This document shows positions 5,004 through 19,747 of a stretch of 64,000 bases of DNA, one piece after another. The position numbers and the translations under genes are program-made. How positions within the stretch are numbered: the first letter of the stretch is position 1; the number at the start of each line of letters is the position of its first letter. The DNA is from Sphingomonas panacis (GTDB lineage: Bacteria; Pseudomonadota; Alphaproteobacteria; Sphingomonadales; Sphingomonadaceae), in the NCBI RefSeq assembly GCF_001717955.1, contig NZ_CP014168.1, positions 1,054,001 through 1,118,000 on the forward strand. Direction: 5' to 3'. A model generated the notes under the pieces. The model had not been told where the DNA came from and searched no databases. It worked only from the letters and a program-made list of their open reading frames with translations.

Positions 5004-5094
5004 AGGAGTCCCCCTGTTTGTTCGTTTGCTTCCGCTCTCCTGCAATTTCGCCTCTCGGGACGTTTTCTCGACGCCAATGATGATGCAAAAATAA

Positions 5095-5124
5095 TGTATA
5101 GACAAGAAATATTATTGCTCACAA
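5095..5124 (-). promoter_or_regulatory. Candidate promoter of the receptor-peptidase operon
   Basis: Read on the minus strand, TTGTGA (5124-5119) and TATACA (5100-5095) are separated by 18 bp, in a locally AT-rich patch that stands out from its surroundings. Transcription would start near 5088, giving a leader of about 85 nt before the ATG at 5003. Confidence 0.5.
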
Positions 5125-5692: not shown

Positions 5693-8026
5693 TTAGAAGC
5701 CCTTCTTGACGGTCACGAAGAACTGGCGCGGTGCTCCGGCCAGCAGCGTCTGATTGTCACCGCTGTTGGTGAAGCCGTTCGAGCCGATCGTCGCGATGTA
5801 CTTCTTGTCGGTGAGGTTGGTGACATTGCCGACGATCGCGAAGCCGTGCAGCGGGCCGTCGCCGTCGAAGCGGTAGCCGATGCTGGCGTCCATCGTGACA
5901 CGGCCGGGCACCGACCGGTCGTTGGAGTAGGTGAAGTAGCGCTTGCTCATGTAGTCGGCGCCGACGCGGGCGGTGATGCCGTATTGATCATAGACGATCT
6001 CGCCCTTGAGCATATGCTCGGGGCTATCGACGGCGGTCTTGCCCTTGGTGTGGATAAGGCCGTCGGGCGTGTCGCGCGTGATCGCGGTGCTGACGTTATC
6101 CTGATATTGCGAGTGGTTGTACGAATAGCTCGCGAAGATCGAGAGCGGCTGGACGATCCGGTAATTGACCGAGAATTCCCCGCCATAGGTGTGGACGCTG
6201 CCGACGTTGTTGAGCGTCGGCGAGTTGCCGAGGATGCCGACGCCGTTCGCGACCGACAGCAGTCGGTTGCTGAAATCGACGTAATAGCCGACCGCGGACG
6301 CCTGGAAGCCGCCGCTACGCAGCCGCACGCCGCCTTCGACGGTTTTGGATTTCTCGGGCTTGAGCGTATTCTTCACCGCATCGAACAGCACCTGCGTGGT
6401 CGCGAAGGGACCGCCGGCGGCCGAACTGGTGAAGGCGCGCATGTTCTCGGTATAATCAGCGAACAGCTCGACATTCTGGGTTGCGCGGTACAGCACGCTC
6501 GCCTGCGGCTGGAACCAGTCCCGCGCGTCGATCCGGCCTTGCGCCAACGTGCCGACCCGCAGCTTGGCGTTGTTGATGACCTGCACACCCTTCCAGCCGG
6601 CGGAGATTTCGAGCGTGTCGCCGGCCAGCTTGAGCGTGTCCTCGACGTGATATTGCAGCGTGTCGGTGTCGTACTTGCCATCCCATGCGGTCGCATAGGG
6701 GTTGCTCTGATAGTCGAGCGCGCTGCGGTTGGGCGTGCCGAGCGTCATGCCGTAGAGACGGCGCGCGATGTTGAGCGTGCTGCTCTCGTACCAGCCGCCG
6801 AAACCGAAGGTGTTGGCGCCAGCCTCATAGCTCAGCGCGCTGATGATGCCGCCGCGCTTCAGGCCGTATTCGGTGGTGCGGAACGACAAGGGCGCGGGGT
6901 TGGTGATCGGCGTGCCATCGGTGTTCAGCGCACCGAGCGGAGTGGGATTGTACGGCGTGATCCACGAGCCCTGGCCCGTGTTCTCGTGATAATAGCCGGT
7001 GGTCTTGACGGTGACGCCGGGCGCCAGCTTGGCGTTGAAGGTCACGCCGCCGAGATAATCGCGGCGCAAACCGGCGGCGTCGTAATAGCTGTCGTCGAGC
7101 GTGCCGCCGCCGGGGAGCGGCTGGCCGGCCTGCGCCGCGGTGGCGATCGCGATGGCGAGCGGGTAATTGTTGCTAATGTTGTCCAGCGAGAGACCGCGAC
7201 GTTTGATCATGTCCAGGCTGAGATCCTGGTAGTCGTTTTCCTTGCGATCCGAATAGGCGAAGTAGGCCGAGATGTCGCCGAGCGTGCCGAGATCGGCGGT
7301 GACCTTGGCGTTGACCTGCTGCTGCTTCTGCTGGCCGTAGCCCTTCCACTTGTCGGTCTTGTAATAGGCGTAGCTGATATAGCCCTTGACGGTGTCGCCG
7401 ATCAGCCCGGAATCGAGCCGTGCGACGCCGCGCCAGGTGTTGTTGGAGCCGTAGGTGCCCGATCCGGTCACGTTCATCGTGTCCTTGGGGTCATCGCTGT
7501 GGAACTGGATCGTGCCGCCGAGATTGCTGGTCGAGGCGGTGCCGAGCGCGCCCGCACCCTGCGCGACGTCGGTGCTGCCGACGTTCTCGGAGATGATCGC
7601 GCGGCTGATGTGGAGCCCGTTGGTGGTGCCGTAGCTCATGTCGCCGAGCGGAATGCCGTCGAGCGTGAAGCCGAGCTGGTTCTGGTTGAAGCCGCGCAGC
7701 GAAATGCGGACCGCCCATTCGTAGTTGCCGAACGCGTCGGCAGACTGGAAGTTGACGCCGGGCAGCTTTTCGATCGCCTTGAGCGGGCTGGCGCCGGGGA
7801 CGATGCGCGCGATGTCGAGCGCGTCGACGGTCTGCACCTGACGGCTCTTGCCGAAGCCGAGCACGACGATGTCGGGGCTTTCGGTGCCGGCATCGCCGCT
7901 CGCAGGCGCTTCCGGCGCGGCGGGCGCGCTCTCGGGCGCTGGCGGGGTTTCGGCGAGCGCGGCGTGGGGCGCGAGCAGCGCGGCCAGCATCGAACCGGCG
8001 AGCAGAACAGTCTTGGAAAGACGCAT
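5693..8026 (-). CDS. TonB-dependent outer-membrane receptor
   Basis: A 777-residue receptor with a signal peptide (cleavage near APHAALAE), a Pro/Ala-rich linker to about residue 45, a VVLGFGKSRQ segment in TonB-box position, a plug domain with ISLRGFNQNQLGF and GGTIQFHSDDP, and a barrel ending KKGF. The ATG at 8026 fits both the signal peptide and an AAGGG-like ribosome-binding site. It lies 240 bp downstream of the MarR gene on the same strand, and a strong hairpin follows it. Sphingomonads import some lignin-derived aromatics through TonB-dependent receptors, so its place beside the ferulate cluster is suggestive, but nothing in the sequence fixes the ligand. It is not closely alike to the first receptor in this window. 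Confidence 0.9.
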   Translation of the reverse strand: MRLSKTVLLAGSMLAALLAPHAALAETPPAPESAPAAPEAPASGDAGTESPDIVVLGFGKSRQVQTVDALDIARIVPGASPLKAIEKLPGVNFQSADAFGNYEWAVRISLRGFNQNQLGFTLDGIPLGDMSYGTTNGLHISRAIISENVGSTDVAQGAGALGTASTSNLGGTIQFHSDDPKDTMNVTGSGTYGSNNTWRGVARLDSGLIGDTVKGYISYAYYKTDKWKGYGQQKQQQVNAKVTADLGTLGDISAYFAYSDRKENDYQDLSLDMIKRRGLSLDNISNNYPLAIAIATAAQAGQPLPGGGTLDDSYYDAAGLRRDYLGGVTFNAKLAPGVTVKTTGYYHENTGQGSWITPYNPTPLGALNTDGTPITNPAPLSFRTTEYGLKRGGIISALSYEAGANTFGFGGWYESSTLNIARRLYGMTLGTPNRSALDYQSNPYATAWDGKYDTDTLQYHVEDTLKLAGDTLEISAGWKGVQVINNAKLRVGTLAQGRIDARDWFQPQASVLYRATQNVELFADYTENMRAFTSSAAGGPFATTQVLFDAVKNTLKPEKSKTVEGGVRLRSGGFQASAVGYYVDFSNRLLSVANGVGILGNSPTLNNVGSVHTYGGEFSVNYRIVQPLSIFASYSYNHSQYQDNVSTAITRDTPDGLIHTKGKTAVDSPEHMLKGEIVYDQYGITARVGADYMSKRYFTYSNDRSVPGRVTMDASIGYRFDGDGPLHGFAIVGNVTNLTDKKYIATIGSNGFTNSGDNQTLLAGAPRQFFVTVKKGF

Positions 8027-8266: not shown

Positions 8267-8722
8267 TTATTCCTGCGCCGCGGTGTCCAACTGCGCGATC
8301 CGTGCCAGCGCCACGCGCAGGGCCTCGATGTCTTGGCCGGAGAACAAAGCTTCGAAGCGCCGCTCGTGCGCGAGCATGATCGCGTCCGCGGCGTCGCGCT
8401 GGGCGACGCCTTCGAGCGACAGCGACAATGCGAAGGACCGGCCGTCGACCGGATATCGCTCGATCAGGCGCTTGTTCACCAGCCCCGCCATCAACGGCAC
8501 CATGTTGGCGCGCTTGATACCGAGCAGCCGGCTGATCTCGCTTTGCGTGCAGCCGGTGTTGGCGCCGACCAGAATCAGGATCGTCGCCTCGACCGGACGG
8601 AGGCCGATCTCCGCCAGCGCGACGCCGAGCGCGCCCATCATCACCCCGGACGCACGGCGCAGAACATAGCCGAGCCGGTCCGAGATCGAGTCCTGCAATG
8701 TCGGTTCGTTCGCTGCCTCCAT
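8267..8722 (-). CDS. ferC: MarR family repressor, FerC-like
   Basis: A 151-residue winged-helix regulator of the MarR family. The helix-turn-helix is visible as TQSEISRLLGIKRANMVPLMA, followed by the wing around RYPVDGRSFAL. The start is taken at the ATG at 8722; a frame upstream of it would add 13 residues running into the shared promoter. It is divergent from the ferulate catabolic operon. In Sphingobium SYK-6 the ferBA operon is repressed by the MarR protein FerC and induced by feruloyl-CoA, and the same gene neighbours here support that role. A 19-bp inverted repeat in the 75-bp gap between the divergent genes is the likely binding site, so the protein probably also controls its own gene. 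The name rests on context, not alignment. Confidence 0.8.
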   Translation of the reverse strand: MEAANEPTLQDSISDRLGYVLRRASGVMMGALGVALAEIGLRPVEATILILVGANTGCTQSEISRLLGIKRANMVPLMAGLVNKRLIERYPVDGRSFALSLSLEGVAQRDAADAIMLAHERRFEALFSGQDIEALRVALARIAQLDTAAQE

Positions 8723-8741
8723 AAATATCGCGCTACCGAGC

Positions 8742-8790
8742 TTGCGCCGGAAACACAACATTGGTATGTTTCATAACAATAAAACAGGAG
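8742..8790 (+). promoter_or_regulatory. Ferulate operon promoter with MarR operator
   Basis: TTGCGC (8742-8747) and TATGTT (8765-8770) are 17 bp apart, a good sigma-70-type promoter for the rightward operon. An inverted repeat TTGGTATG-TTT-CATAACAA (8761-8779, one mismatch between the arms) covers the -10, where a bound dimer would block RNA polymerase. The Shine-Dalgarno AGGAG lies at 8786-8790, 7 nt before the GTG start. Confidence 0.65.
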
Positions 8791-8797
8791 AGCGCTT

Positions 8798-10249
8798 GTG
8801 TCAGGTAGCGAAGTAGCCCTTTCGATCGGCGGTACGCCACGCGCCACCCCCGAACAGTATGTGCGGACCAACCCCGTCTCGGGTGAGGTCGCCACGCGCG
8901 CCGCCGCCGCGAGCGTCGCCGATGCGACCGCCGCCGTCGATGCGGCGGCTGCGGCCTTCCCGGCATGGTCGGCGGTTGGCCCGACGGCACGCCGCATGTT
9001 GCTGCTCAGGGCGGCCGACGCGCTCGACGCCAAAGCCCAGGATTTCGTCGCGGCGATGATGGCGGAGATCGGCGCGACCGAAGGCTGGGCACGTTTCAAC
9101 CTGATGCTCGCCAGCGGCATGGTGCGCGAGGCGGCGGCGCTGACCACGCAGATCAGCGGCGAGGTGATCCCGTCCGACAAGCCGGGCTGCATCGCGATGG
9201 CGCTGCGCGAACCGGCGGGCGTGGTGCTCGGCATGGCGCCGTGGAACGCGCCGATCATCCTCGGCACGCGCGCGATCGCGGTCCCGTTGGCGTGCGGCAA
9301 TACCGTCGTGCTCAAGGCCTCCGAACAGTGTCCGCGCACGCATGCGCTGATCATCGAAGCGTTCATCGAGGCGGGTTTCGGCGATGGCATCGTCAACCTC
9401 ATCACCAACGCGCCCGCCGATGCCGGCGACGTGGTCGGCGCGATGATCGACCATCCCGCCGTGCGCCGGGTCAATTTCACCGGATCGACCGCGGTGGGCA
9501 GGATCATCGCGCGGCGCTGCGCCGACAACCTCAAGCCCGCGTTGCTCGAACTCGGCGGCAAGGCGCCGCTGATCGTGCTCGACGACGCCGATCTCGACGA
9601 GGCGGTGAAGGCGGCCGCGTTCGGTGCGTTCATGAACCAGGGCCAGATCTGTATGTCGACCGAACGGATCATCGTGGTCGATGCGATTGCGGATGCCTTC
9701 GTCGAGAAATTCGCCGCCAAGGTCGGCACGATGCCGGTCGGCGATCCGCGCGACGGCAAGACGCCGCTCGGCGCGGTGGTCGATCTCAAGACGGTCAGCC
9801 ATGTTCAGGGGCTGATCGACGACGCGGTCGCCGCCGGCGCGGTGCAGACCAATGGTGGCGCGGCCGATGGCGTGCTGATGCCCGCGCATGTCATCGACAA
9901 GGTGACGCCCGACATGAAGCTGTTCCGCGAGGAGAGTTTCGGCCCCGTCGTCGGCATCATCCGCGCACGTGACGAAGCCCATGCGATCGACCTCGCCAAC
10001 GATACCGAATATGGTCTGTCGGCGGCGGTGTTCACGCGCGACACCGCGCGGGGGCTTCGCGTCGCGCGGCAGATCAAGTCGGGCATCTGCCACGTCAACG
10101 GGCCGACAGTGCATGACGAGGCGCAGATGCCGTTCGGCGGCACCAAGGCGTCGGGCTACGGCAAGTTCGGCGGCAAGGCCGGTATCGACAGCTTCACCGA
10201 GTTGCGCTGGATCACGATCGAGACTCAGCCCGGCCATTTCCCGATCTGA
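8798..10249 (+). CDS. vdh: Vanillin-type aldehyde dehydrogenase (NAD(P)+)
   Basis: A 483-residue aldehyde dehydrogenase, first gene of the ferulate operon. The catalytic pair is present: Glu251 in ELGGKAP and Cys285 in NQGQICMS, 34 residues apart as usual in the superfamily; the motif APWNAPIILG marks the cofactor-binding half. It starts at a GTG (8798) with AGGAG 7 nt upstream. Context assigns the substrate: the operon also carries the hydratase/lyase that releases vanillin (or 4-hydroxybenzaldehyde) from the hydroxycinnamoyl-CoA, so this enzyme should oxidise vanillin to vanillate. It resembles the vanillin/salicylaldehyde dehydrogenase subgroup. Other aromatic aldehydes may be accepted. 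Confidence 0.85.
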   Translation: MSGSEVALSIGGTPRATPEQYVRTNPVSGEVATRAAAASVADATAAVDAAAAAFPAWSAVGPTARRMLLLRAADALDAKAQDFVAAMMAEIGATEGWARFNLMLASGMVREAAALTTQISGEVIPSDKPGCIAMALREPAGVVLGMAPWNAPIILGTRAIAVPLACGNTVVLKASEQCPRTHALIIEAFIEAGFGDGIVNLITNAPADAGDVVGAMIDHPAVRRVNFTGSTAVGRIIARRCADNLKPALLELGGKAPLIVLDDADLDEAVKAAAFGAFMNQGQICMSTERIIVVDAIADAFVEKFAAKVGTMPVGDPRDGKTPLGAVVDLKTVSHVQGLIDDAVAAGAVQTNGGAADGVLMPAHVIDKVTPDMKLFREESFGPVVGIIRARDEAHAIDLANDTEYGLSAAVFTRDTARGLRVARQIKSGICHVNGPTVHDEAQMPFGGTKASGYGKFGGKAGIDSFTELRWITIETQPGHFPI

Positions 10250-10255
10250 TCGCCG

Positions 10256-10723
10256 GTGACCGACTCCTCCGTCCCGACCCTCGACTTCGTTTTCTCGATC
10301 CGGGTGGCGGTGTCCGCGCCGGTCGAGACGGGCTTGGTCGACGGCCATCGCCGCCGCTGCATCCCGATCACGGGCGGTTCGGTCGATGGGCCGCGCCTGC
10401 ACGGCGTCGTCATGCCGCTCGGCGCGGACTGGCAGACGATCGACTCCGATGGCGTGACCGAACTCGACGCGCGCTATGCGATCATGGCGCACGACGGGAC
10501 GATCATCGAAGTTCGCAATCGTGGTGTCCGCGTCGCCGCGCCCGAGGTGAGCGATCGGCTCGCGCGCGGTGAGCCAGTCGATCCGGCGCTATATTATTTC
10601 CGCACCGCGCCGCGCTTCACCGTCGCCGCCGGCCCACACGATTGGCTGCGCCGGACCCTCTTCGTTGGTGCGGGGCTGCGCCGGCCCGACCACGTTCTCA
10701 TCAGCATCTACGCCGTCGGCTGA
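10256..10723 (+). CDS. DUF3237 family protein in the ferulate operon
   Basis: A 155-residue protein of the DUF3237 (UPF0311) family, recognised from LDFVFSIRVAVSAP near the N-terminus, ITGGSVDGPRLHGVVMPLGADWQ, and the ending LYYFRTAPRF...DHVLISIYAVG. Family members are small single-domain beta proteins without an established reaction. The GTG start at 10256 is 6 nt after the TGA of the aldehyde dehydrogenase, with no obvious Shine-Dalgarno, so translation is probably coupled. Its position between the dehydrogenase and the hydratase/lyase implies a role with an intermediate of the pathway (binding, hydrolysis of a by-product, or a side activity), but that is inference only. Confidence 0.75.
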   Translation: MTDSSVPTLDFVFSIRVAVSAPVETGLVDGHRRRCIPITGGSVDGPRLHGVVMPLGADWQTIDSDGVTELDARYAIMAHDGTIIEVRNRGVRVAAPEVSDRLARGEPVDPALYYFRTAPRFTVAAGPHDWLRRTLFVGAGLRRPDHVLISIYAVG

Positions 10724-10746
10724 CGGCCCCATCAGGAGACTTCTTC

Positions 10747-11583
10747 ATGACCATCGACCCCGTTGAACTGGCGACCGTCGCCGTCACCGTCGAAAACGGC
10801 ATCGCCTGGGTGAGCTTCAACCGGCCCGACAAGCGCAACTGCATGTCGCCCCGCCTCAACCGCCAGATGATGCGCGTGCTCGACGATCTCGAGTTCCGCG
10901 AGGATGTCGGCGTGCTGGTGCTGACCGGCGAAGGCACCGCCTGGTCGGCGGGCATGGATCTCAAGGAATATTTCCGCGAGACCGAGGTGGACGGACTTGG
11001 CGGCACGCGCAAGGCGCAGCGCGAAAGCTATGGCTGGTGGCGGCGGCTGCGCTGGTATCAGAAGCCGACGATCGCGATGGTCAACGGCTGGTGCTTCGGC
11101 GGCGGCTATGGCCCGCTGTTCGCGTGCGACCTCGCCTTCGCGGCGGAAGACGCGCAATTCGGCCTCAGCGAGATCAACTGGGGCATCCTGCCCGGCGGCG
11201 GCGCTGCCAAGGTCGCGACCGAACTCACCTCGTTCCGGCGCGCGATGTACCATGCGATGATGGGCGAGAATATCGACGGCAAGACCGCGGTCGAATGGGG
11301 CTTCGTCAACGAAGCGCTGCCGCTCGACCAGCTCAAGGCGCGCGTCGCCGAGGTGGCGGCGGTGCTGCTCAAGAAGAACCCGGTCGCGCTGAAGGCGACC
11401 AAGGACTCGATCCGCCGCGTGCGCGAGATGACCTATGACAATGCCGAGGATTATCTGATCCGCGCGCAGGAAGCCGCCAACAGCTACGACAGCGAGGGCC
11501 GCAAGGAAGGCATCAAGCAGTTCATCGACGACAAGACCTACAAGCCCGGTCTTGGCGCCTATGACAAGACCAAGCAGCGCTGA
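10747..11583 (+). CDS. ferB: Feruloyl-CoA hydratase/lyase (HCHL family)
   Basis: A 278-residue crotonase-fold enzyme that hydrates feruloyl- or coumaroyl-CoA and cleaves the product to acetyl-CoA and vanillin or 4-hydroxybenzaldehyde. It follows the Pseudomonas HCHL enzyme closely: NRPDKRN, AWSAGMDLKEYF with Met70, MVNGWCFGGG, and the catalytic Glu142 in GLSEINWGI (Glu143 in HCHL). One difference stands out: the residue matching HCHL Ser123 is Gly122 (GGGYGPL instead of GGGFSPL). The true start is the ATG at 10747 with AGGAG at 10734-10738; a longer in-frame extension overlaps the DUF3237 gene and is not protein-like. The C-terminus (KQFIDDKTYKPGL) also matches the family. It pairs functionally with the CoA ligase that follows 15 bp later. 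Confidence 0.93.
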   Translation: MTIDPVELATVAVTVENGIAWVSFNRPDKRNCMSPRLNRQMMRVLDDLEFREDVGVLVLTGEGTAWSAGMDLKEYFRETEVDGLGGTRKAQRESYGWWRRLRWYQKPTIAMVNGWCFGGGYGPLFACDLAFAAEDAQFGLSEINWGILPGGGAAKVATELTSFRRAMYHAMMGENIDGKTAVEWGFVNEALPLDQLKARVAEVAAVLLKKNPVALKATKDSIRRVREMTYDNAEDYLIRAQEAANSYDSEGRKEGIKQFIDDKTYKPGLGAYDKTKQR

Positions 11584-11598
11584 GCGGGAGCGGACATC

Positions 11599-13731
11599 AT
11601 GACGGTCGAGACCCTGACGCCACCCGCCGCTTTGGCAACCGGTCACACGCTCGACCGGCTGCTTCGGCCCCGATCGGTCGCGATCGTCGGCGCATCCGAC
11701 AAGCCCGGCGCGCTCGGCGCGTCGGTGCTGGCCAACCTGGATCGCAACGGCTTTTCCGGGGCGATCCACCTCATCAACCCGAAGCGCGCCGAGATCGGCG
11801 GGCGGCCTTGCCTCGCCTCGGTCGCCGATCTCCCCGACGGCGTCGATGCGGCGGTGCTGGCGATCCCGCGCGTGGCGGTGCTCGACACGGTCAAGGCGCT
11901 GGCGGCGCGTGGCGTCGGCGCAGCGGTGATCTTCTCGGCCGGGTTCGCCGAAGGGGGCGAGGAAGGGCTGGCCGAACAGCGCGAGATCGGCCGGATCGCA
12001 CACGAGACCGGCATGGTGGTGGAGGGGCCGAACTGCCTCGGCATGACCAACTTCATCGATCGCATACCGCTCACGTTCGTCGAGACGAACGCGGTGCCGC
12101 TGGGCGATCGCAAGGGCATCGGCATCGTTTCGCAGAGCGGCGCGATGGCGTGCGTGCTGGGCACGATGCTGGCGAGCCGCGACCTTGGCCTGTCCTTCTC
12201 GGTTTCGACCGGCAATGAAGCAGCCTCGGGCGTGGAGGATTATGTCGAATATCTCCTCGATGATCCCGCCACCGACGTGATCGCGATGATCGTCGAACAA
12301 TTTCGTAAACCGCAGCGCTTCCTCGCGGCGGCGCTGCGCGCGCGGACGCTCGGCAAGACGATCGTGCTGCTGCATCCCGGCAAATCGAGCGCGGCGCGCG
12401 AATCCGCCGCGACGCATACCGGCGCGATGGCGGGCGACTATGCGGTGATGCGCGTGAAGGTCGAACGGGCCGGCGTGGTCTTCGCCGAAACGCTGGAGGA
12501 GCTTGGCGACATCGCCGAGATCGCGCTGCGTTGTCCGACCGTTCCGCCCGCAGGCGTCGCGGTGCTCGGCGAATCGGGCGCGTTCAAGGCGCTGACGCTC
12601 GATCTGTGCGAGGCACTCGACCTCGATCTGCCGGTGATCGACGATGCCTCCGCGCCCGCCTTGCGCGCGGCGCTGCCCGAGTTCGTGGGGGTGAGCAATC
12701 CGCTCGACCTGACCGCACAGGGGCTGGTCGATCCCGACCTCTACTACCGCACGCTCGCCGCGCTGTTCGGCGACGATCGTTTCGGCAGCATCGTCGCCGG
12801 CATCATCCAGACCGATCCGGTAACGGTCGGCATCAAGCTGCCGCCGATCCTGCGCGCGGTGTCCGAGCTCAGGCCCGCCAAGCCGGTGATCTTCGCCGGG
12901 CTGGACGAAGGCGCCGCAGTGTCGGCCGAGTATCTCGCGCAGCTTCGCGCACTCGGCATCCCGTACTTCCCCTCGACCGAACGCGCGCTGCGTGCGCTCA
13001 AGCGGCTGACGGCGCTTGGCGGGCGCGATTTCGCGGAAGCGGCCGCGGAGCCGATCGCCGGTCTCGATCTGCCGGCGGGGGGCGTGATGCCCGAATATCG
13101 GGCGAAGGCGCTGTTGGCTCCGCTCGGCATTCCCGTGCCCGCCGGCGTGTTCGCGACCACCGTCGAGGCGGCGCTCGCGGGGGCGGAGACGCTCGGCTAT
13201 CCGGTCGCGATCAAGGCGCAATCGCCCGATCTCAGCCACAAGAGCGATGCCGGCGGCGTGATCCTCAACCTCGCCGATGCCGATGCGCTGCGCGACGGCT
13301 GGGCGCGGCTTTACGCCAATGTCGCCGCCTATGACCCCGGTCTGGCGCTCGACGGCGTGCTGATCGAGGCGATGGGCCAGCGCGGGGTCGAGCTGATCGT
13401 CGGCGCGAAGAATGATCCCGAATGGGGTCCGGTGATTCTGGTCGGGTTCGGCGGCGTGACGGCGGAAATCCTCCACGATGTCCGGCTGCTGACGCCCGAC
13501 CTGCCGGTCGCGGCGATCGAGCGGGAACTCTACCAGCTCAAGAGCGCGGCGCTGTTGCGGGGGTTTCGCGGATCGCCCGCGCTCGACGTGGGCGCGGTGG
13601 CCGAGCTGGTGGCGACGGTCGGCCGGATCATGCAGTCCGCGCCGAGCATCGCCGAGATCGATCTCAACCCGGTGATCGTCTATCCGCACGGGGCAATCGC
13701 ACTCGACGCGCTGATCCTGATGGCGCCCTAA
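11599..13731 (+). CDS. ferA: Feruloyl-CoA synthetase, ADP-forming type
   Basis: A 710-residue acyl-CoA synthetase of the nucleoside-diphosphate-forming superfamily, the type used for ferulate by Sphingobium SYK-6 (FerA), not the AMP-forming Fcs of pseudomonads. Order of domains: CoA-binding Rossmann domain (SVAIVGASDKPGALG, residues about 25-150), two succinyl-CoA-ligase-like flavodoxin domains (about 155-460) and an ATP-grasp domain (about 485-710, with YPVAIKAQSPDLSHKSDAGGV and GPVILVGFGG). His273 in ATHTGAMAG lies in the segment that carries the phosphohistidine in this superfamily. The ATG at 11599 has GGGAG upstream. The gene directly follows ferB, the same pairing as in known ferulate operons. 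Substrates probably include p-coumarate and caffeate. Confidence 0.9.
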   Translation: MTVETLTPPAALATGHTLDRLLRPRSVAIVGASDKPGALGASVLANLDRNGFSGAIHLINPKRAEIGGRPCLASVADLPDGVDAAVLAIPRVAVLDTVKALAARGVGAAVIFSAGFAEGGEEGLAEQREIGRIAHETGMVVEGPNCLGMTNFIDRIPLTFVETNAVPLGDRKGIGIVSQSGAMACVLGTMLASRDLGLSFSVSTGNEAASGVEDYVEYLLDDPATDVIAMIVEQFRKPQRFLAAALRARTLGKTIVLLHPGKSSAARESAATHTGAMAGDYAVMRVKVERAGVVFAETLEELGDIAEIALRCPTVPPAGVAVLGESGAFKALTLDLCEALDLDLPVIDDASAPALRAALPEFVGVSNPLDLTAQGLVDPDLYYRTLAALFGDDRFGSIVAGIIQTDPVTVGIKLPPILRAVSELRPAKPVIFAGLDEGAAVSAEYLAQLRALGIPYFPSTERALRALKRLTALGGRDFAEAAAEPIAGLDLPAGGVMPEYRAKALLAPLGIPVPAGVFATTVEAALAGAETLGYPVAIKAQSPDLSHKSDAGGVILNLADADALRDGWARLYANVAAYDPGLALDGVLIEAMGQRGVELIVGAKNDPEWGPVILVGFGGVTAEILHDVRLLTPDLPVAAIERELYQLKSAALLRGFRGSPALDVGAVAELVATVGRIMQSAPSIAEIDLNPVIVYPHGAIALDALILMAP

Positions 13732-13776
13732 TCCGAACGTCGGCCACCAAATCGGCGCGGGTGCGTTCAGGCGTGA

Positions 13777-14634
13777 ATGACCGGTCAAGGCTTCTCGCTT
13801 CAGCATCGCGCCAGGCGCAGCATCGTGCGGCGCGTGCAGGCGTTGTTCAACGATCAGGCACGCGGCGAGCAGCCCGTCATCCGCAGCGACACGGCGCTGT
13901 TCGCCGCGTCCTCGCCGATCTGGCGGGTTCATGGCGACGTCACGACGATGATGATCGGCGGCGTGACGGCACTGCTGCTCCAGATGCTCCATCCGGCGGT
14001 GCTTGCGGGCGTGTGGGATCATTCGGGGTTTCGCGCCGACATGCTGGGGCGACTGCGGCGGACGGCGCGGTTCGTCTCGATCACGACCTATGGAGACAGG
14101 GCAGAAGCCGCCGCTGCCATCGCGCGTGTCCGCGAGATTCATGGCCGGATCACGGGGACGTTGCCCGACGGTACGCCCTACCGCGCCGACGACCCCGACC
14201 TGCTCGGCTGGGTGCATGTCACCGAGGCGTGGAGCTTTCTCGCGGCGTGGCAGCGATATGGCGACGGCCGGTTGTCGCGCGCCGAGGCCGATCTTTACTG
14301 CGCGGATTTCGCGACCATCGGCCACGCGCTTGGTGCGATATCCGCGCCCCGCGACACTGCCGGTACGGTCCGCGCGCTCGAGGGCGGGCGGGCGCGGCTC
14401 GCGGCGGATGATCGCACCCGCGAGGTCGCGCGGACGGTTCTCGGCCACATGCCCGACAACCCGCTTGCGATTCCGTTGCAGCGCGTGACGATGCAGGCTG
14501 CCGTCGATCTGCTGCCGGCATGGGCGCGGCGCATGCATGGCCTGCCAGCGTCCCCGCCGCTTGCGCGCCCCATCGTCAGCACCGGGGCGCTCGGTCTCGC
14601 GACGACGTTGCGCTGGGCGTTCGCGAGCCCCTGA
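13777..14634 (+). CDS. MpaB/DUF2236 family oxygenase-like protein
   Basis: A 285-residue member of the DUF2236 family, the catalytic domain shared by fungal MpaB oxygenases and bacterial latex-clearing (rubber) oxygenases. The signature is LLLQMLHPAVLAGVWDHSGF, RLRRTARFVSITTYGD and, further on, DLLGWVHVTEAWSFL, containing His residues that are candidates for metal or haem ligation. No signal peptide is seen, so it is probably cytoplasmic or membrane-associated. It starts 45 bp after ferA on the same strand and may be the fifth gene of the operon. DUF2236 proteins are mostly uncharacterised; whether this one acts on an aromatic, an alkene side chain or a lipid cannot be told from sequence. Confidence 0.75.
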   Translation: MTGQGFSLQHRARRSIVRRVQALFNDQARGEQPVIRSDTALFAASSPIWRVHGDVTTMMIGGVTALLLQMLHPAVLAGVWDHSGFRADMLGRLRRTARFVSITTYGDRAEAAAAIARVREIHGRITGTLPDGTPYRADDPDLLGWVHVTEAWSFLAAWQRYGDGRLSRAEADLYCADFATIGHALGAISAPRDTAGTVRALEGGRARLAADDRTREVARTVLGHMPDNPLAIPLQRVTMQAAVDLLPAWARRMHGLPASPPLARPIVSTGALGLATTLRWAFASP

Positions 14635-14695
14635 GCGGGTTGGTTCACATCCGAACGCACGCTAAACGAAACCGCGACCGTCGAGGAGATCAACC

Positions 14696-15772
14696 ATGCC
14701 GTTTCCCACGCCCTATACCGCCGACCCGGCCCGCTATGACGGACGCATGCCCTATCGCCGCACCGGGCGGAGCGGGCTGCGATTGCCGGCGATCAGCCTC
14801 GGGCTGTGGCAGAATTTCGGCGGCGCGGACGTGTTCGAGACCGGCCGGGCGATCCTGCGCCGGGCGTTCGATCGCGGCGTGACCCATTTCGATCTCGCCA
14901 ACAATTACGGCCCGCCCTACGGCTCGGCCGAGGAGAATTTCGGGCGCGTGTTCGCCGCCGACTTCGCTGGCCACCGGGACGAACTGATCATCTCGACCAA
15001 GGCGGGCTGGGACATGTGGCCGGGGCCATATGGCGATGTCGGCTCGTCCAAGAAATATCTGATCGCGAGCTGCGACCAGAGCCTCAAGCGGATGGGGCTC
15101 GACTATGTCGATATCTTCTATTCGCACCGGGTCGATCCGGCGACGCCGCTCGAAGAGACGATGGGCGCGCTGGTCCAGCTCCACCGGCAGGGCAAGGCGC
15201 TGTATGTCGGCATATCCTCCTACGAACCCGGGCTGACCCGGCAGGCCGCCGCGATCCTCGCCGAAGAGAAGGTGCCGCTCTTCATCCATCAGCCGAGCTA
15301 TTCGATCCTCAACCGCTGGATCGAGCAGGGCTTGCTCGCCACGCTGGATGCGCTCGGCACGGGCTGCATCGCTTTCTCGCCGCTTGCCCAGGGCATGCTG
15401 ACCGCCAAATATCTCGGCGGCGTGCCGCAAGACGCTCGGGCGAGCCGACAGGGATCGCTGTCGCAGGCGCTGCTGAGCGAGCGAAACCTGACCGCGATCC
15501 GCACGCTCGACGGAATCGCGAAGCAGCGTGGCCAGACGCTCGCGCAGATGGCGATCGCCTGGGTTTTGCGTGACCCGCGAATCACCTCGGCGCTGATCGG
15601 CGCGCGCACCGTCGAACAGCTCGACGATTCGCTCGATGCCGTGAAAGACCTTCAGTTCACGGCGGACGAGCTCGCCGCGATCGACGCAGCGGCGGAGGAC
15701 GGCGGGATCAACATCTGGTCGGGATCGTCGGAAATCTCGACGCTACCGCCCGCGCAAGGCGTGCCGGTCTGA
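14696..15772 (+). CDS. Aldo/keto reductase, YghZ-like
   Basis: A 358-residue NADP(H)-dependent aldo/keto reductase of the YghZ / L-glyceraldehyde-3-phosphate reductase subgroup. The catalytic tetrad can be placed: Asp66 and Tyr71 (FDLANNYGPPYG), Lys102 (STKAGWDMWPGPYG) and His144 (FYSHRVD). The cofactor loop SPLAQGMLTAKYL and the C-terminal ALIGARTVEQLDDSL are also typical. It is 61 bp after the MpaB-like gene and convergent with vanR (17 bp between stop codons). It could reduce an aldehyde or ketone side product of lignin-monomer breakdown, or simply be a general carbonyl-detoxifying enzyme; the neighbourhood favours the first but does not prove it. Confidence 0.88.
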   Translation: MPFPTPYTADPARYDGRMPYRRTGRSGLRLPAISLGLWQNFGGADVFETGRAILRRAFDRGVTHFDLANNYGPPYGSAEENFGRVFAADFAGHRDELIISTKAGWDMWPGPYGDVGSSKKYLIASCDQSLKRMGLDYVDIFYSHRVDPATPLEETMGALVQLHRQGKALYVGISSYEPGLTRQAAAILAEEKVPLFIHQPSYSILNRWIEQGLLATLDALGTGCIAFSPLAQGMLTAKYLGGVPQDARASRQGSLSQALLSERNLTAIRTLDGIAKQRGQTLAQMAIAWVLRDPRITSALIGARTVEQLDDSLDAVKDLQFTADELAAIDAAAEDGGINIWSGSSEISTLPPAQGVPV

Positions 15773-15788
15773 CGGTGCCGCCCGCCGG

Positions 15789-16526
15789 CTACGGTCCGGG
15801 CGGTATCCCCCCGAACACGCGCTCGCTGCCGACCGCCGCCCAGGCATGATCCCGCATGATGCGTTCAGCGTCGTCGGGATCGCGCCGCAGGATCGCGTCG
15901 ATCACGTCGCAATGCGCCTGGTGCGCGCCGCGCAGATGCTCGAATTCGGATGGACGATCGCTCCAGTCGAGCGCCAGCGCCGACGCCGAGGCGAACGGGA
16001 GATGGTTGTTGCGCGCGAGAGCATAGCCGATCGACGGGTTGCCGCTCGCATCGATCAGCAAGCTGTGGAACGCGACGTTGTAAGCGTAGAACAGATCGAG
16101 CGCGCCGTCGGCCAACACACCATCGGCGAAGATCGCCGCACCTTCGGCCAGGCACGTTCGAAAGGCGTGCTGTTCGGCCGTGGTCAGCCCGCGCTGCGCC
16201 AGCCGCCGGGCGGCCAGCCCTTCCAGTACGCCACGGACTTCGATCGCGCCGTTGATTTCCGACGCGGTGATCGAGCGGGCCGCATACCCCCGCGCCCCCA
16301 GCCTGACCACGAGCCCCTCGGCCTCCAACGCCCGCAGCGCGGTGCGCACCGGCATGCGCGACACGCCGAGCGCCTCGGCCGTGGCGACTTCGCCGATCCG
16401 TTCGCCGGGCTGGAACGTGCCCTCGGCGATCATCCGCCGCAGCGAGACGATGACGTGCTGGCCGGGTTTGAGCGGCTTTGCGGCTGGCGGGGTCGGAGTC
16501 GAGGGTGGGGGCGATCGATCGTTCAT
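15789..16526 (-). CDS. vanR: GntR/FCD family regulator, VanR-like
   Basis: A 245-residue GntR-family regulator: N-terminal winged helix-turn-helix (residues about 22-90; PGERIGEVATAEALGVSRMPV, then ALEAEGLVVRLGARGY) and a C-terminal all-helical FCD ligand-binding domain. It lies 31 bp downstream of vanA on the same strand, so it is probably co-transcribed with vanA. The vanA promoter carries two copies of the sequence bound by Caulobacter VanR, which makes this gene the obvious candidate for the repressor that vanillate releases. In Caulobacter vanR is divergent from vanAB; here it sits inside the operon it would control, which would give negative feedback. Confidence 0.85.
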   Translation of the reverse strand: MNDRSPPPSTPTPPAAKPLKPGQHVIVSLRRMIAEGTFQPGERIGEVATAEALGVSRMPVRTALRALEAEGLVVRLGARGYAARSITASEINGAIEVRGVLEGLAARRLAQRGLTTAEQHAFRTCLAEGAAIFADGVLADGALDLFYAYNVAFHSLLIDASGNPSIGYALARNNHLPFASASALALDWSDRPSEFEHLRGAHQAHCDVIDAILRRDPDDAERIMRDHAWAAVGSERVFGGIPPGP

Positions 16527-16557
16527 GGGCGTGCTTGTGGACTGGCCCGCGCCGCCG

Positions 16558-17649
16558 TCAAAGCGCCACCATTTCCTCCGTCTCGGTTTCCTGCGCTTCG
16601 GCGCCCGGCTGTTCGGCGGCGATCGCCCGCTCGATCATCATGCGCGAGCGAACCCCGCCCGCATCGATGTTGAGCTTGAGGAGCTTGCGATCGGGATAGC
16701 GGCTGAGGTTGGCCTGCTGCCGCTCCAGCATCTCGAGGTCTTCACCGAAAATCCGGCCCTGCCCTTCGCGGATCGTATCGGTCAGCGCCGCGTCCGCGAT
16801 GGCGAAGCGGCGCGCCATGCCCCAGAAATAATGGTGCGATGTCTCGGTCTCGGGCGTGATGAAATCGACCACGATGGAGGATGCCTTGGCCGCATCCTCG
16901 GCGTCATATCCGCCGCGCCCCTGAAGCGCGACGCCGACCTCGATCATGACATGGCTCGGCAGGGTGAATCGGCAAATCTGCCAGCGATCGACCAGTCCGT
17001 CGTCGGGCAACCCGGCACCGCGAAGTGCCATTTGCCAGAAGGGCGGCGCGACGATCGCGTCCATGAAACGGCTGGTGACGACCTCTTCGGGCGTGGCGCG
17101 AGTCTTGACGGGCGCCTCGTCGATCTCCTTCTGCCCGATGCTGCTCGCATGGACATAGGTTTCGTGCGTAAGGTCCATCAGATTGTCGACCATCAAGCGA
17201 TAGTCGCAGTCGATATGGTAATAGCCGCCGCCATAAGCCCATTGCGGGCTTTCCGCCCATTCCAGATGGTGAAGCTTGGCGGGGTCCGCCGCTTCCGCGT
17301 CACCGGGCCAGACCCAGATGAAACCATAGCGTTCGATGACCGGATAGCGACGGATCGCCGGAAAGCCGCCGACCCGCTGCCCCGGCATGTCGGAGACCTT
17401 GCCACGGCAGTCGGCCGCCAGACCATGATAGCCACACACCAGAGCGCCATCGCGAACGAAGCCCAATGACAGAGGCGCGCCGCGATGCGGGCAGAAATCC
17501 TCGAGCGCGGATACGGACCCATCCGTGGTGCGGAAGAAGACCATCTTCTCACCACAGATCGTCCGGCCGAGCGGGCCGGTTCCGACCTCGTCCGCGGCAC
17601 AGCCGACATACCATGCGTTACGAATCCACGGTGTCACACCTTCACTCAC
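16558..17649 (-). CDS. vanA: Vanillate O-demethylase oxygenase subunit
   Basis: A Rieske non-haem iron oxygenase of about 363 residues that demethylates vanillate to protocatechuate and formaldehyde. Counting from the ATG at 17658, the Rieske cluster ligands are Cys56, His58, Cys75 and His78 (CPHRGAPLSLG, CGYHGL); the bridging Asp162 and iron ligands His165 and His170 are in DNLMDLTHETYVH. The GTG at 17649 is chosen as start because AGGAG directly abuts the ATG at 17658 (spacing 0) but is 9 nt from the GTG; the difference is three residues. The promoter has two VanR-type operators. No vanB ferredoxin-reductase gene adjoins it, unlike most vanAB operons, so electrons must come from a reductase encoded elsewhere. 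Related oxygenases can demethylate other methoxybenzoates. Confidence 0.88.
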   Translation of the reverse strand: MSEGVTPWIRNAWYVGCAADEVGTGPLGRTICGEKMVFFRTTDGSVSALEDFCPHRGAPLSLGFVRDGALVCGYHGLAADCRGKVSDMPGQRVGGFPAIRRYPVIERYGFIWVWPGDAEAADPAKLHHLEWAESPQWAYGGGYYHIDCDYRLMVDNLMDLTHETYVHASSIGQKEIDEAPVKTRATPEEVVTSRFMDAIVAPPFWQMALRGAGLPDDGLVDRWQICRFTLPSHVMIEVGVALQGRGGYDAEDAAKASSIVVDFITPETETSHHYFWGMARRFAIADAALTDTIREGQGRIFGEDLEMLERQQANLSRYPDRKLLKLNIDAGGVRSRMMIERAIAAEQPGAEAQETETEEMVAL

Positions 17650-17668
17650 GACATCCATCTCCTGTTTG

Positions 17669-17705
17669 TTGGATCCAATACATGCCGTACTGGATCCAAT
17701 GTCAA
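17669..17705 (-). promoter_or_regulatory. vanA promoter with two VanR-type operators
   Basis: On the minus strand TTGACA (17705-17700) and TGTATT (17682-17677) are 17 bp apart. Two palindromes with core TGGATCCA (17691-17698 and 17670-17677) lie exactly 21 bp, two helical turns, apart. One fills the promoter spacer, the other overlaps the -10 and start point. Each matches the known Caulobacter VanR operator ATTGGATCCAAT at 11 of 12 bases. Confidence 0.85.
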
Positions 17706-17764: not shown

Positions 17765-19747
17765 TCACGCTACGATCTGAAGCCTCGGCTTGCCTGCCGG
17801 CACTGGTTGGAAATCGGTGGCCCATTCCCGGTCGAGCGATTTGAGGAATGCGCGGAGCCCCATGGGCCGGGCGAAGAAATAGCCCTGCGCCATTCTGTAG
17901 CCGAGTTCACGCAACTGCTGGAGTTGAGCATCCGTTTCGACGCCCTCGATGATACAATCGAGTCCGAGCGTCTGGCATAGCCCGAGGATCGCGGAAATGA
18001 TGTTGCGTCCCGACGCTTCATCCATGTCGGCGATGAAACTGCGGTCGACCTTGACCTTGTCCAGAGGCAGCCGGTGCAGGTAGCTCAGGCTTGAATAGCC
18101 CGAGCCGAAATCGTCCAGCGCGATCCGTATCCCAAGCGCGCGCAAGCGTTTGATGCTGGCGACCGCCGCCTCGAAATCGCGCATCAACGCGGTCTCGGTC
18201 AGTTCGAACGTGATCCGCTTGGGATCGATATTCCCCCGTTCGATCATGTCGATGAGCAGGTCGATCGTGTCGGCGGAGACGATGTCGCGCGCCGACAGGT
18301 TGAACGAAAGCCCGATCCGTTCGGGCATTTGCGCGAAGCACGTCAGTGCGTTCCGGAACAGGCTGGCGGTGATGACGTGCATGAAGCCGAGCCGTTCCGC
18401 GGCCATGATGAACTGGTCCGGTTTTATCGCGCCGAGCGTTGGGCTGGTCCAGCGCCCCAGCGCTTCGACGCCGAGCACGGCCATATTCTCCGTACAGAAG
18501 ATCGGCTGAAACTGGACGTGCAGTTCCGTGTCGAAATCGGCGGTCTGCATCGCCGCTTCGAGGACGCGTTCGGATCGTATGAGAGTCTCATGCTCTGTCG
18601 AAAAGAGTGCGCACGTACCGGGATTGAGCGACTTGACGTGATATAGCGCATAATCGGAGCGATCGAACAGTTGATGGACCGAAGCGCCGGCATCCGGGAA
18701 GATCGCGACCCCGCCGGAGCAGCCGAGTGCGATCCGCTGCCCTTCGATGTCGAACGGCTCGGTCAGCAGGTCGCAAACCCGCTGGCCGATTTCACGCGCG
18801 TGGTCGATATCCTCCAGGATCAGGATTCCGAACTCGTCGCCTCCGAGCCGGGCCACCTCGCATGTCTTGCTGGCAACGCTCTCAAGTCTCGCGCCCACAG
18901 CGGTGAGAAGACGGTCGCCGAAGACGTGCCCATAGGTATCGTTCACGGGCTTGAAGCGGTCTAGATCGAGAACGCCGACGGCAAACCGTTCGCCGGTCAG
19001 CTTGCGCGATGTCAACACGGCGTCGAGCTGCGCGAAGAAATGCCGCCGGTTGGGCAGCCCGGTCAACGCATCGGTCAGCGCCAGCCGTGCGTTTTCCCTG
19101 CTCAGGCGTTCGGCCTCGGCCTGCTCCGCCGCAAGGCTCACCTGCGATCGGACGAGAGTCGCGAATGCCGCGAAGCTGTTCTGCAACACCCGGATCATCA
19201 CGCCCGACACCAAAACGATGTTGAGCGCCATCGCGATGAAGACCGAGCTGCCGTGGAGAAAATTGTATATGAGGTACGGGCTCAACACCGTTATGGTGAC
19301 GAGAAACGCCGTCTGCGGGACGCTGATCAGGCAGAAGATGCAACCGATCACCGTGACGGCGACGAAAAGCGAGACATGCGCTTGCTCGGACGGGCCTCCA
19401 TATCGGTAGAGCGTCAGCGACCAGCCGACGAAGGCCACGCAGAGCGGGCCGGCGAAAGCCGTCGTCCTGCGCAACGTCCGGCGGGCGACCACCGCGTCGA
19501 TCGCGGTGACGGGAGGCGCAAACGCCCATATCGTCATTCGCCAGCAACACACCAGGATCAGCCCGCCGGCGGCGCCCAGCGTCAACCACCCCGGTGCGTA
19601 AGCATAATGGGTGTAGCTTACCGCGCACGCGTTCAGGACGAGCAGCGAATACATGAGAGGTATCTGCCGTTTCAGCTCGCCATATTGCGCGACCCGAATA
19701 TCGGGTTCGCCTGCGAAGCTGAGCCAAGTGTAGAAACGGCGCAACAT
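17765..19747 (-). CDS. Membrane GGDEF-EAL cyclic-di-GMP protein
   Basis: A 660-residue inner-membrane protein. About six hydrophobic segments fill residues 30-200, followed by a short coiled linker (about 205-235), a GGDEF domain with an intact motif (residues 302-306, RLGGDEF) and an EAL domain starting EAL at 428-430 (GVEALGRW). EAL metal- and substrate-binding segments are also intact: FELTETALMRD, LDDFGSGYSSL and IEGVETDAQ. The RxxD inhibitory site usually five residues before GGDEF is absent, so product inhibition is not expected. Both activities may therefore be possible; which dominates cannot be read. It is monocistronic, with no sensory domain other than the membrane part, which resembles no MHYT or MASE domain I can name with confidence. 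Confidence 0.9.
   Translation of the reverse strand: MLRRFYTWLSFAGEPDIRVAQYGELKRQIPLMYSLLVLNACAVSYTHYAYAPGWLTLGAAGGLILVCCWRMTIWAFAPPVTAIDAVVARRTLRRTTAFAGPLCVAFVGWSLTLYRYGGPSEQAHVSLFVAVTVIGCIFCLISVPQTAFLVTITVLSPYLIYNFLHGSSVFIAMALNIVLVSGVMIRVLQNSFAAFATLVRSQVSLAAEQAEAERLSRENARLALTDALTGLPNRRHFFAQLDAVLTSRKLTGERFAVGVLDLDRFKPVNDTYGHVFGDRLLTAVGARLESVASKTCEVARLGGDEFGILILEDIDHAREIGQRVCDLLTEPFDIEGQRIALGCSGGVAIFPDAGASVHQLFDRSDYALYHVKSLNPGTCALFSTEHETLIRSERVLEAAMQTADFDTELHVQFQPIFCTENMAVLGVEALGRWTSPTLGAIKPDQFIMAAERLGFMHVITASLFRNALTCFAQMPERIGLSFNLSARDIVSADTIDLLIDMIERGNIDPKRITFELTETALMRDFEAAVASIKRLRALGIRIALDDFGSGYSSLSYLHRLPLDKVKVDRSFIADMDEASGRNIISAILGLCQTLGLDCIIEGVETDAQLQQLRELGYRMAQGYFFARPMGLRAFLKSLDREWATDFQPVPAGKPRLQIVA

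Follow-up and report, generated by a model that had tools for sequence, protein, structure and literature searches.

Which enzymes would carry ferulate down to protocatechuate in a sphingomonad, by how many switches would they be controlled, and what removes the methoxyl group of vanillate if the tetrahydrofolate-dependent O-demethylase LigM is not to be found? These questions are raised by an island of nine genes (positions 8267-17658) in a 64,000-nucleotide stretch of the Sphingomonas panacis genome, hereafter the window, which lies at C1:1054001-1118000 of a 5.32-Mb genome in two contigs. In this island marR is divergent from vdh-DUF3237-ferB-ferA-mpaB-akr, and vanR-vanA lies tail to tail with that operon. 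On sequence grounds we regard the island, with a probability of roughly 0.78, as a chromosomal funnel for ferulate and hydroxycinnamates composed of two repressor-controlled units, with VanA acting on vanillate. In such a funnel FerA would convert ferulate to feruloyl-coenzyme A (feruloyl-CoA), FerB would hydrate and cleave the latter to vanillin and acetyl-CoA, Vdh would turn vanillin into vanillate, and VanA would O-demethylate vanillate to protocatechuate, which would then pass to a 4,5-cleavage (lig) cluster. The fer operon would be repressed by a divergent FerC/CouR-type MarR protein through one palindrome and released by a CoA thioester, while VanR would repress vanA and its own gene through two GGATCC operators until vanillate releases it. 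The pathway is of a known kind and its arrangement is recurrent but in the minority; the sequence evidence for two private switches is strong.

The order and strands of the nine genes, which had been proposed in an initial annotation of this DNA, were borne out by open reading frame (ORF) and domain searches (Table 1). From vdh to akr the ORF coordinates leave intergenic gaps of 6, 23, 15, 45, and 61 bp, a tail-to-tail gap of 16 bp separates akr from vanR, and vanA and vanR follow each other on the same strand; each of the two groups is presumed to be cotranscribed. A promoter and terminator scan of the region gave a signal no better than that of shuffled sequence. The same annotation had drawn the route from ferulate over feruloyl-CoA, vanillin, and vanillate to protocatechuate under two separate controls, and the family assignment of the enzymes supports the route, while the finding that each operator is unique in the genome supports the two modules. 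Family assignments of FerB and VanA are firm as judged from their sequences. The best solved-structure match of FerB is the feruloyl-CoA hydratase/lyase 7xwc (442 bits); its start is taken at 10747, and several analyses used the same frame from 10750. Vdh belongs with certainty to the Aldedh family.

Table 1. Features of the ferulate and vanillate island, in window coordinates
Feature	Position	Strand	Basis
MarR-family repressor, FerC/CouR-like, divergent from fer operon	8722..8267	-	Pfam MarR_2, 34 bits
Probable MarR operator, 21-bp palindrome ATTGGTATG-TTT-CATAACAAT	8760..8780	.	marR-vdh gap
Vdh, aldehyde dehydrogenase, presumed vanillin dehydrogenase (Vdh/LigV-like)	8798..10249	+	Pfam Aldedh, 486 bits
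DUF3237 (UPF0311) beta-barrel protein	10256..10723	+	Pfam domain shared with the lariciresinoate (lignan) decarboxylase PinX
FerB, hydroxycinnamoyl-CoA hydratase/lyase	10747..11583	+	NCBIfam p-hydroxycinnamoyl CoA hydratase/lyase, 465 bits (cut-off 276)
FerA-like CoA ligase, ADP-forming/ATP-grasp type	11599..13731	+	CoA_binding_2, Succ_CoA_lig, and ATP-grasp_5
MpaB/DUF2236-type oxygenase-like gene, ferA-akr interval	13777..14634	+	Pfam, 217 bits
Aldo-keto reductase (akr), YghZ-like subfamily	14696..15772	+	NCBIfam PRK09912, 490 bits (cut-off 448)
VanR, GntR/FCD repressor	16526..15789	-	Pfam GntR and FCD; 31 bp from vanA; Caulobacter-type operator at vanA
VanA, Rieske oxygenase subunit of vanillate O-demethylase	17658..16558	-	Rieske and VanA_C
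Two predicted VanR operators, vanA promoter, TTGGATCCAA and CTGGATCCAAT	17668..17700	.	GGATCC palindromes

For comparison we used 80 loci other than the window, drawn by FerA similarity with 10-kb flanks (some contigs being shorter), of which 50 carry FerB in the same locus (ferBA loci) and 30 are ferA-only. A vdh relative of at least 60% identity lies in 42 of the 50 ferBA loci. The ferA-only loci are mostly from Novosphingobium (e.g., L025, L027, and L029) and have a close FerA relative, no FerB at 60% or above and no Vdh in the stretch; one of them (L081) shows a partial FerB match, and some of these contigs are short. Judged by FerA, Sphingomonas populi 3-7 (L004; 94%) is the closest named relative; there all island genes except mpaB are collinear at a DNA identity of 89.8-97.2% per gene, DUF3237 excepted. 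Since the same genes minus mpaB are collinear in S. populi, the island is not a chance assembly. The ferC/ferBA system of Sphingobium SYK-6 (FerA SLG_25020 and FerB SLG_25030 in the available part of PMC12997858) has FerA, FerB, a MarR-type FerC, and protocatechuate 4,5-cleavage in common with S. panacis, whereas the island described here has vanR-vanA beside the operon and a DUF3237 gene inside it, and LigM was not found. SYK-6 is described as having FerC with the ferulate pathway and LigM for vanillate, and as lacking a vanR-like gene (PMC6888825).

The first switch is predicted in the marR-vdh gap. The best solved relative of the MarR protein is CouR (6c28, E-value 4.6e-12), its orthologs in other loci are divergent from vdh or ferB, and here, as expected of the FerC/CouR type, the divergent gene is accompanied by a palindrome in the gap; the ORF list also permits a marR start at 8761. 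The ATTGNTATGNNNCATANCAAT palindrome is a single site in the whole genome when up to two mismatches are allowed (none for the reversed-pattern control), and at up to three mismatches 0.03 sites would be expected in the window. It occurs in full upstream of marR in five of the seven loci with a MarR of 56% identity or more; among these seven, L005 has the core with other spacing and L006 a different palindrome. A related core is present in all five rhizobial loci. Repressors of the FerC/CouR type sense the hydroxycinnamoyl-CoA thioester, and by analogy with them the MarR protein of S. panacis is most likely released by a CoA thioester.

The second switch lies at the vanA promoter, where a GntR/FCD gene stands beside vanA together with paired TTGGATCCAA-type operators. 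The exact TTGGATCCAA, a perfect palindrome, occurs once in the genome, and the reversed-pattern control is empty; CTGGATCCAAT adjoins a hexamer, TTGACA, read on the vanA strand. A search that tolerated one mismatch gave four strand matches of the motif in the window, all at the two vanA sites (0.48 expected; one of 100 shuffles reaches four). In the fetched loci, the 330 nt that precede each vanA match were then searched for eight-base segments of the palindrome. A TTGGATCC-type site was found at all 11 class-1 vanA genes (at least 69% identity) with an adjacent GntR gene and at none of the seven class-1 genes without one; it is likewise missing from eight class-2 vanA genes (47-51%), three rhizobial vanA genes, a fragmentary match in L033, and two paralogue rows. 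The 11 operator-bearing loci are not independent, because eight of them come from one genus. The available part of one source gives a C. crescentus vanillate-promoter reporter construct that contains ATTGGATCCAAT and GATTGGATCCAG, the same motif pair (PMC6538847), and it is our own reading that this stretch of the construct is the vanillate promoter. In C. crescentus a GntR-type VanR is described as the repressor of vanAB, and vanillate as its effector (available text of PMC6888825). A literature search on the VanR operator found no primary operator paper. As far as these partial sources go, the Caulobacter crescentus vanillate system resembles the one described here in its GntR-type VanR, its paired GGATCC operators, and a VanA of the class of the C. 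segnis protein; we infer from the Caulobacter repressor, helped by the matching operator, that VanR of S. panacis senses vanillate. The two systems differ in that Caulobacter vanAB includes the reductase VanB, whereas here none was found and vanA shares a unit with vanR opposite the ferulate operon.

VanA itself has both iron-site motifs, the Rieske CxH(n)CxxH as CPH(n)CGYH and NxxDxxHxxxxH as NLMDLTHETYVH, together with the VanA_C domain; its identity to a Caulobacter segnis protein is 75%. In the VanA tree its sole starred group is that with S. populi, amid Caulobacter and sphingomonad rows; because branches are long and the deeper forks weak, close groupings alone were used. LigM, by comparison, was not found in the source genome: a search with GCV_T (PF01571) gave only two frames, one of 417 amino acids (aa) that is GcvT by sequence and one of 995 aa, and a LigM query, identified by its solved relatives 5tl4/5x1i (471 bits), gave nothing at an E-value of 1e-60.

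How often VanA stands in for LigM was surveyed in an even sample of 397 family genomes, with counts made by hand among the matches listed; the family so sampled appears to leave out Sphingobium, labelled Sphingobiaceae in the tree. Among these matches class-1 VanA (at least 70%) occurs in 13 genomes including the source, class-2 VanA (45-52%) in at least 23, and LigM (at least 64%) in 59 of 397; a stop codon is counted within one of the class-1 matches (G196). None of the 13 class-1 genomes has a listed LigM, where chance would give about 1.9, a difference that is not statistically firm, and three of the at least 23 class-2 genomes have both. Within the 50 ferBA loci we counted five class-1 VanA (one of them in Asticcacaulis), three class-2, and three rhizobial VanA genes against five LigM genes (at least 60%), with a LigM relative at 35-60% in two more loci and no locus harboring both VanA and LigM. 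Since VanA classes or LigM alternate in this way, O-demethylation is an exchangeable step next to ferBA, and on this distribution the pairing of ferBA with VanA recurs as a minority alternative to LigM. The initial annotation had called the pairing with VanA a notable variant of a LigM-based scheme, and this stands insofar as VanA is present and LigM was not found; the variant is not a one-off, as it recurs elsewhere and in two VanA classes. The idea of a unique oddity was rejected, since the pairing recurs both in the family survey and among the ferBA loci. Related arrangements were seen in passing. Two loci, one from the same genus (L172 of G285) and one from G093 (L171), have a class-2 vanA among genes that look lig-like by eye, within 10 kb of ferBA-vdh, and so form a fuller ferulate-to-ring-cleavage cluster; in two others (L068:13122-14510 and L073:13142-14527, the latter identified via solved structures) a LigM gene follows ferA by about 1 kb as the counterpart of the VanA arrangement.

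The island had also been called complete, and this claim fails, as no VanB-type reductase, the cognate partner expected of VanAB, was found in the island or the genome. The query was the protein that follows vanA in an Asticcacaulis locus (L022), a relative of phthalate dioxygenase reductase, and it had no match in the source genome. Of the seven Fer2 matches of this genome, one is NuoG, three are small subunits of the Fer2_2 type, and three are free ferredoxins, the third of which (in L097) was identified by eye. A search over 19 genomes, in which the Asticcacaulis and Rhizobium positive controls worked, gave matches in 12. Apart from Asticcacaulis itself, three genomes (G393, G401, and that of Rhizobium) gave clear VanB-like matches (37-40% identity), and weaker ones came from eight (G001, G162, G234, G262, G307, G372, G397, and G399); seven had no match (G000, G090, G149, G196, G286, G297, and G402). 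Several of the weaker matches, at 29-34%, span most of the query within longer frames, so a working reductase is possible in those genomes. Among the 13 class-1 genomes of the family, source included, the VanB match is absent in six, distant in six, and clear in one; because five of the 12 others thus have no match, six a distant, and one a clear match, vanA is kept without an obvious VanB.

Since no VanB was found, VanA probably draws on free carriers, namely a free [2Fe-2S] ferredoxin and a flavin adenine dinucleotide (FAD)-containing ferredoxin reductase encoded elsewhere. The analogy is the LigXa O-demethylase of SYK-6, whose ferredoxin and reductase genes, LigXc and LigXd, are scattered (SLG_07770, SLG_08500, and SLG_21200 in the available parts of PMC12997858 and PMC6874591); it is a sphingomonad O-demethylase with unlinked carriers, and its substrate differs, being 5,5'-dehydrodivanillate. 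A further precedent is DmtS of N. aromaticivorans, which likewise has no VanB gene clustered with it (PMC8091115). Candidate carriers are present, with free ferredoxins at C1:4351949, C1:3696344, and C1:2786210 and ferredoxin reductases at C1:2773704 and C1:3581768. A class-2 vanA in L046 is followed by an FAD ferredoxin reductase, of which the source genome has two relatives (67% and 60%), the first being closest to the solved 3lxd, and a putidaredoxin-like ferredoxin is a free [2Fe-2S] candidate. As a side observation, a ferredoxin reductase at C1:2773704 and a free ferredoxin at C1:2786210 lie about 11 kb apart and may be a shared redox pair.

The next step of the pathway would fall to a lig ring-cleavage cluster about 0.75 Mb away (~C1:1.822-1.830 Mb). 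It contains LigA and LigB, an oxidoreductase resembling LigC, a pair of amidohydrolases, and a divergently encoded FAD hydroxylase; for the last three families the labels would be LigC, LigI/LigJ, and PobA, respectively. Protocatechuate, along with 4-hydroxybenzoate from p-coumarate, could enter this cluster. LigB-like matches elsewhere (C1:3565954-3566743) are in pieces with internal stops and are probably a decayed ring-cleavage gene.

Several observations weigh against the funnel model as a whole. Vdh reaches neither an NCBIfam equivalog cut-off nor a model specific for vanillin dehydrogenase among the best 25 of 44 rows, so its substrate assignment rests on linkage. The palindrome core of the first switch is found in just 16 of 38 MarR rows, and most of the rows that lack it are MarR proteins of less than 50% identity. 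The GntR protein reaches no NCBIfam cut-off, and three rhizobial loci combine a GntR gene (38% identity) and vanA (41%) with no such operator, so the van operator marks a subgroup. The candidate electron partners are guesses, neither lying beside vanA. Lastly, the nearest solved relative of VanA by sequence is the dicamba O-demethylase DdmC, so that another methoxybenzoate substrate is possible. This last point leads to the alternative that survives best, according to which VanA is a Rieske O-demethylase for other or several methoxybenzoates and vanillate flows by another route. A parallel is DmtS of N. aromaticivorans, a distant VanA-like oxygenase of a sphingomonad that has no clustered VanB gene and whose specificity, in the available part of the source, is not directly determined (PMC8091115). 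We hold this alternative to be unlikely, and vanillate is favored as the substrate by the identity to the C. segnis homologue, by the operator shared with the vanillate-driven Caulobacter construct, by the linkage to ferBA in several genomes, and by LigM not being found.

A second alternative concerns the two genes at the end of the fer operon, which the initial annotation had listed with the operon; as members of the pathway they are unsupported, since of the 50 other ferBA loci none has mpaB and one has this akr. According to this alternative mpaB and akr would be functional operon parts, for instance in side-chain or aldehyde handling, and the island a broader phenylpropanoid unit. They do share the strand and the short spacing of the operon, and S. 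populi retains akr as well. However, mpaB has no match in any of the 80 other loci, S. populi has ferA and akr adjacent with no mpaB between them, the listed named relatives of MpaB are mostly from Sphingomonas, with close ones scattered through that genus, and akr at 60% or above is found in S. populi only. We therefore rejected both as pathway enzymes on their poor conservation across fer loci and think a wider operon role quite unlikely; mpaB is probably a passenger, as judged by sequence comparison. The weakest alternative, that for want of a reductase the lower module works poorly or not at all and ferulate is taken only to vanillate, is very improbable, since against the missing VanB stand a vanA with intact motifs that is 92% identical in DNA to the S. 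populi copy, the distribution of VanB matches among the 12 other class-1 genomes, and, as far as the available sources on SYK-6 go, a LigXa that works with scattered carrier genes.

Within the funnel model the least understood part of the island is the DUF3237 gene. It occurs in 17 of the 50 ferBA loci and in none of the 30 ferA-only loci. Compared with S. populi its DNA identity is 62-71%, and the gene has been replaced singly, at the gene borders; the S. populi protein has a leader-like N-terminus and the window copy has none. The same domain is carried by PinX, which is homologous to PhcF/PhcG (available parts of PMC12607616 and PMC12997858), and the likeness of the window protein to these dilignol decarboxylases is drawn at the level of the DUF3237 domain alone. 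Among the fold matches listed for DUF3237 the phenolic acid decarboxylase PadC does not appear, which excludes nothing. By analogy, we tentatively suggest, while doubting it more than we believe it, that the DUF3237 protein may be an as yet unnoticed, recurrent component of ferulate operons, a small-barrel enzyme of the PinX/PhcF kind which acts on a carboxylated or quinone-methide-type phenylpropanoid and feeds FerBA-Vdh, with exported and cytosolic versions being swapped among close relatives as a single-gene cassette. Its substrate would then be a dimer fragment or a by-product of ferulate, and a PinX-like DUF3237 enzyme together with a VanB-less VanA on shared carriers would make the island an entry point for lignin dimers beyond ferulate.

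None of the nine island genes encodes a transporter, whereas a major facilitator superfamily transporter is present in 25 of the 50 ferBA loci. Beyond marR, on the minus strand, lie two TonB-dependent receptors (5693-8026 and 2700-5105). By analogy with DdvT of SYK-6 they are possible uptake genes, and they show no conservation with ferBA; among the 80 fer loci the first of them has a match (E-value 1e-20, above 30%) in S. populi only. Directly upstream of vanA is a GGDEF-EAL protein (17765-19747), with a match of at least 60% among the 50 ferBA loci again in S. populi only.

The island offers a compact example of how LigM or several classes of VanA are exchanged beside one conserved ferBA core. 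Its two genome-unique operators could serve as sensors for vanillate and for hydroxycinnamates. For the funnelling of lignin-derived compounds it raises the questions of which redox carriers serve a VanB-less VanA and what role DUF3237 proteins may play in ferulate operons.

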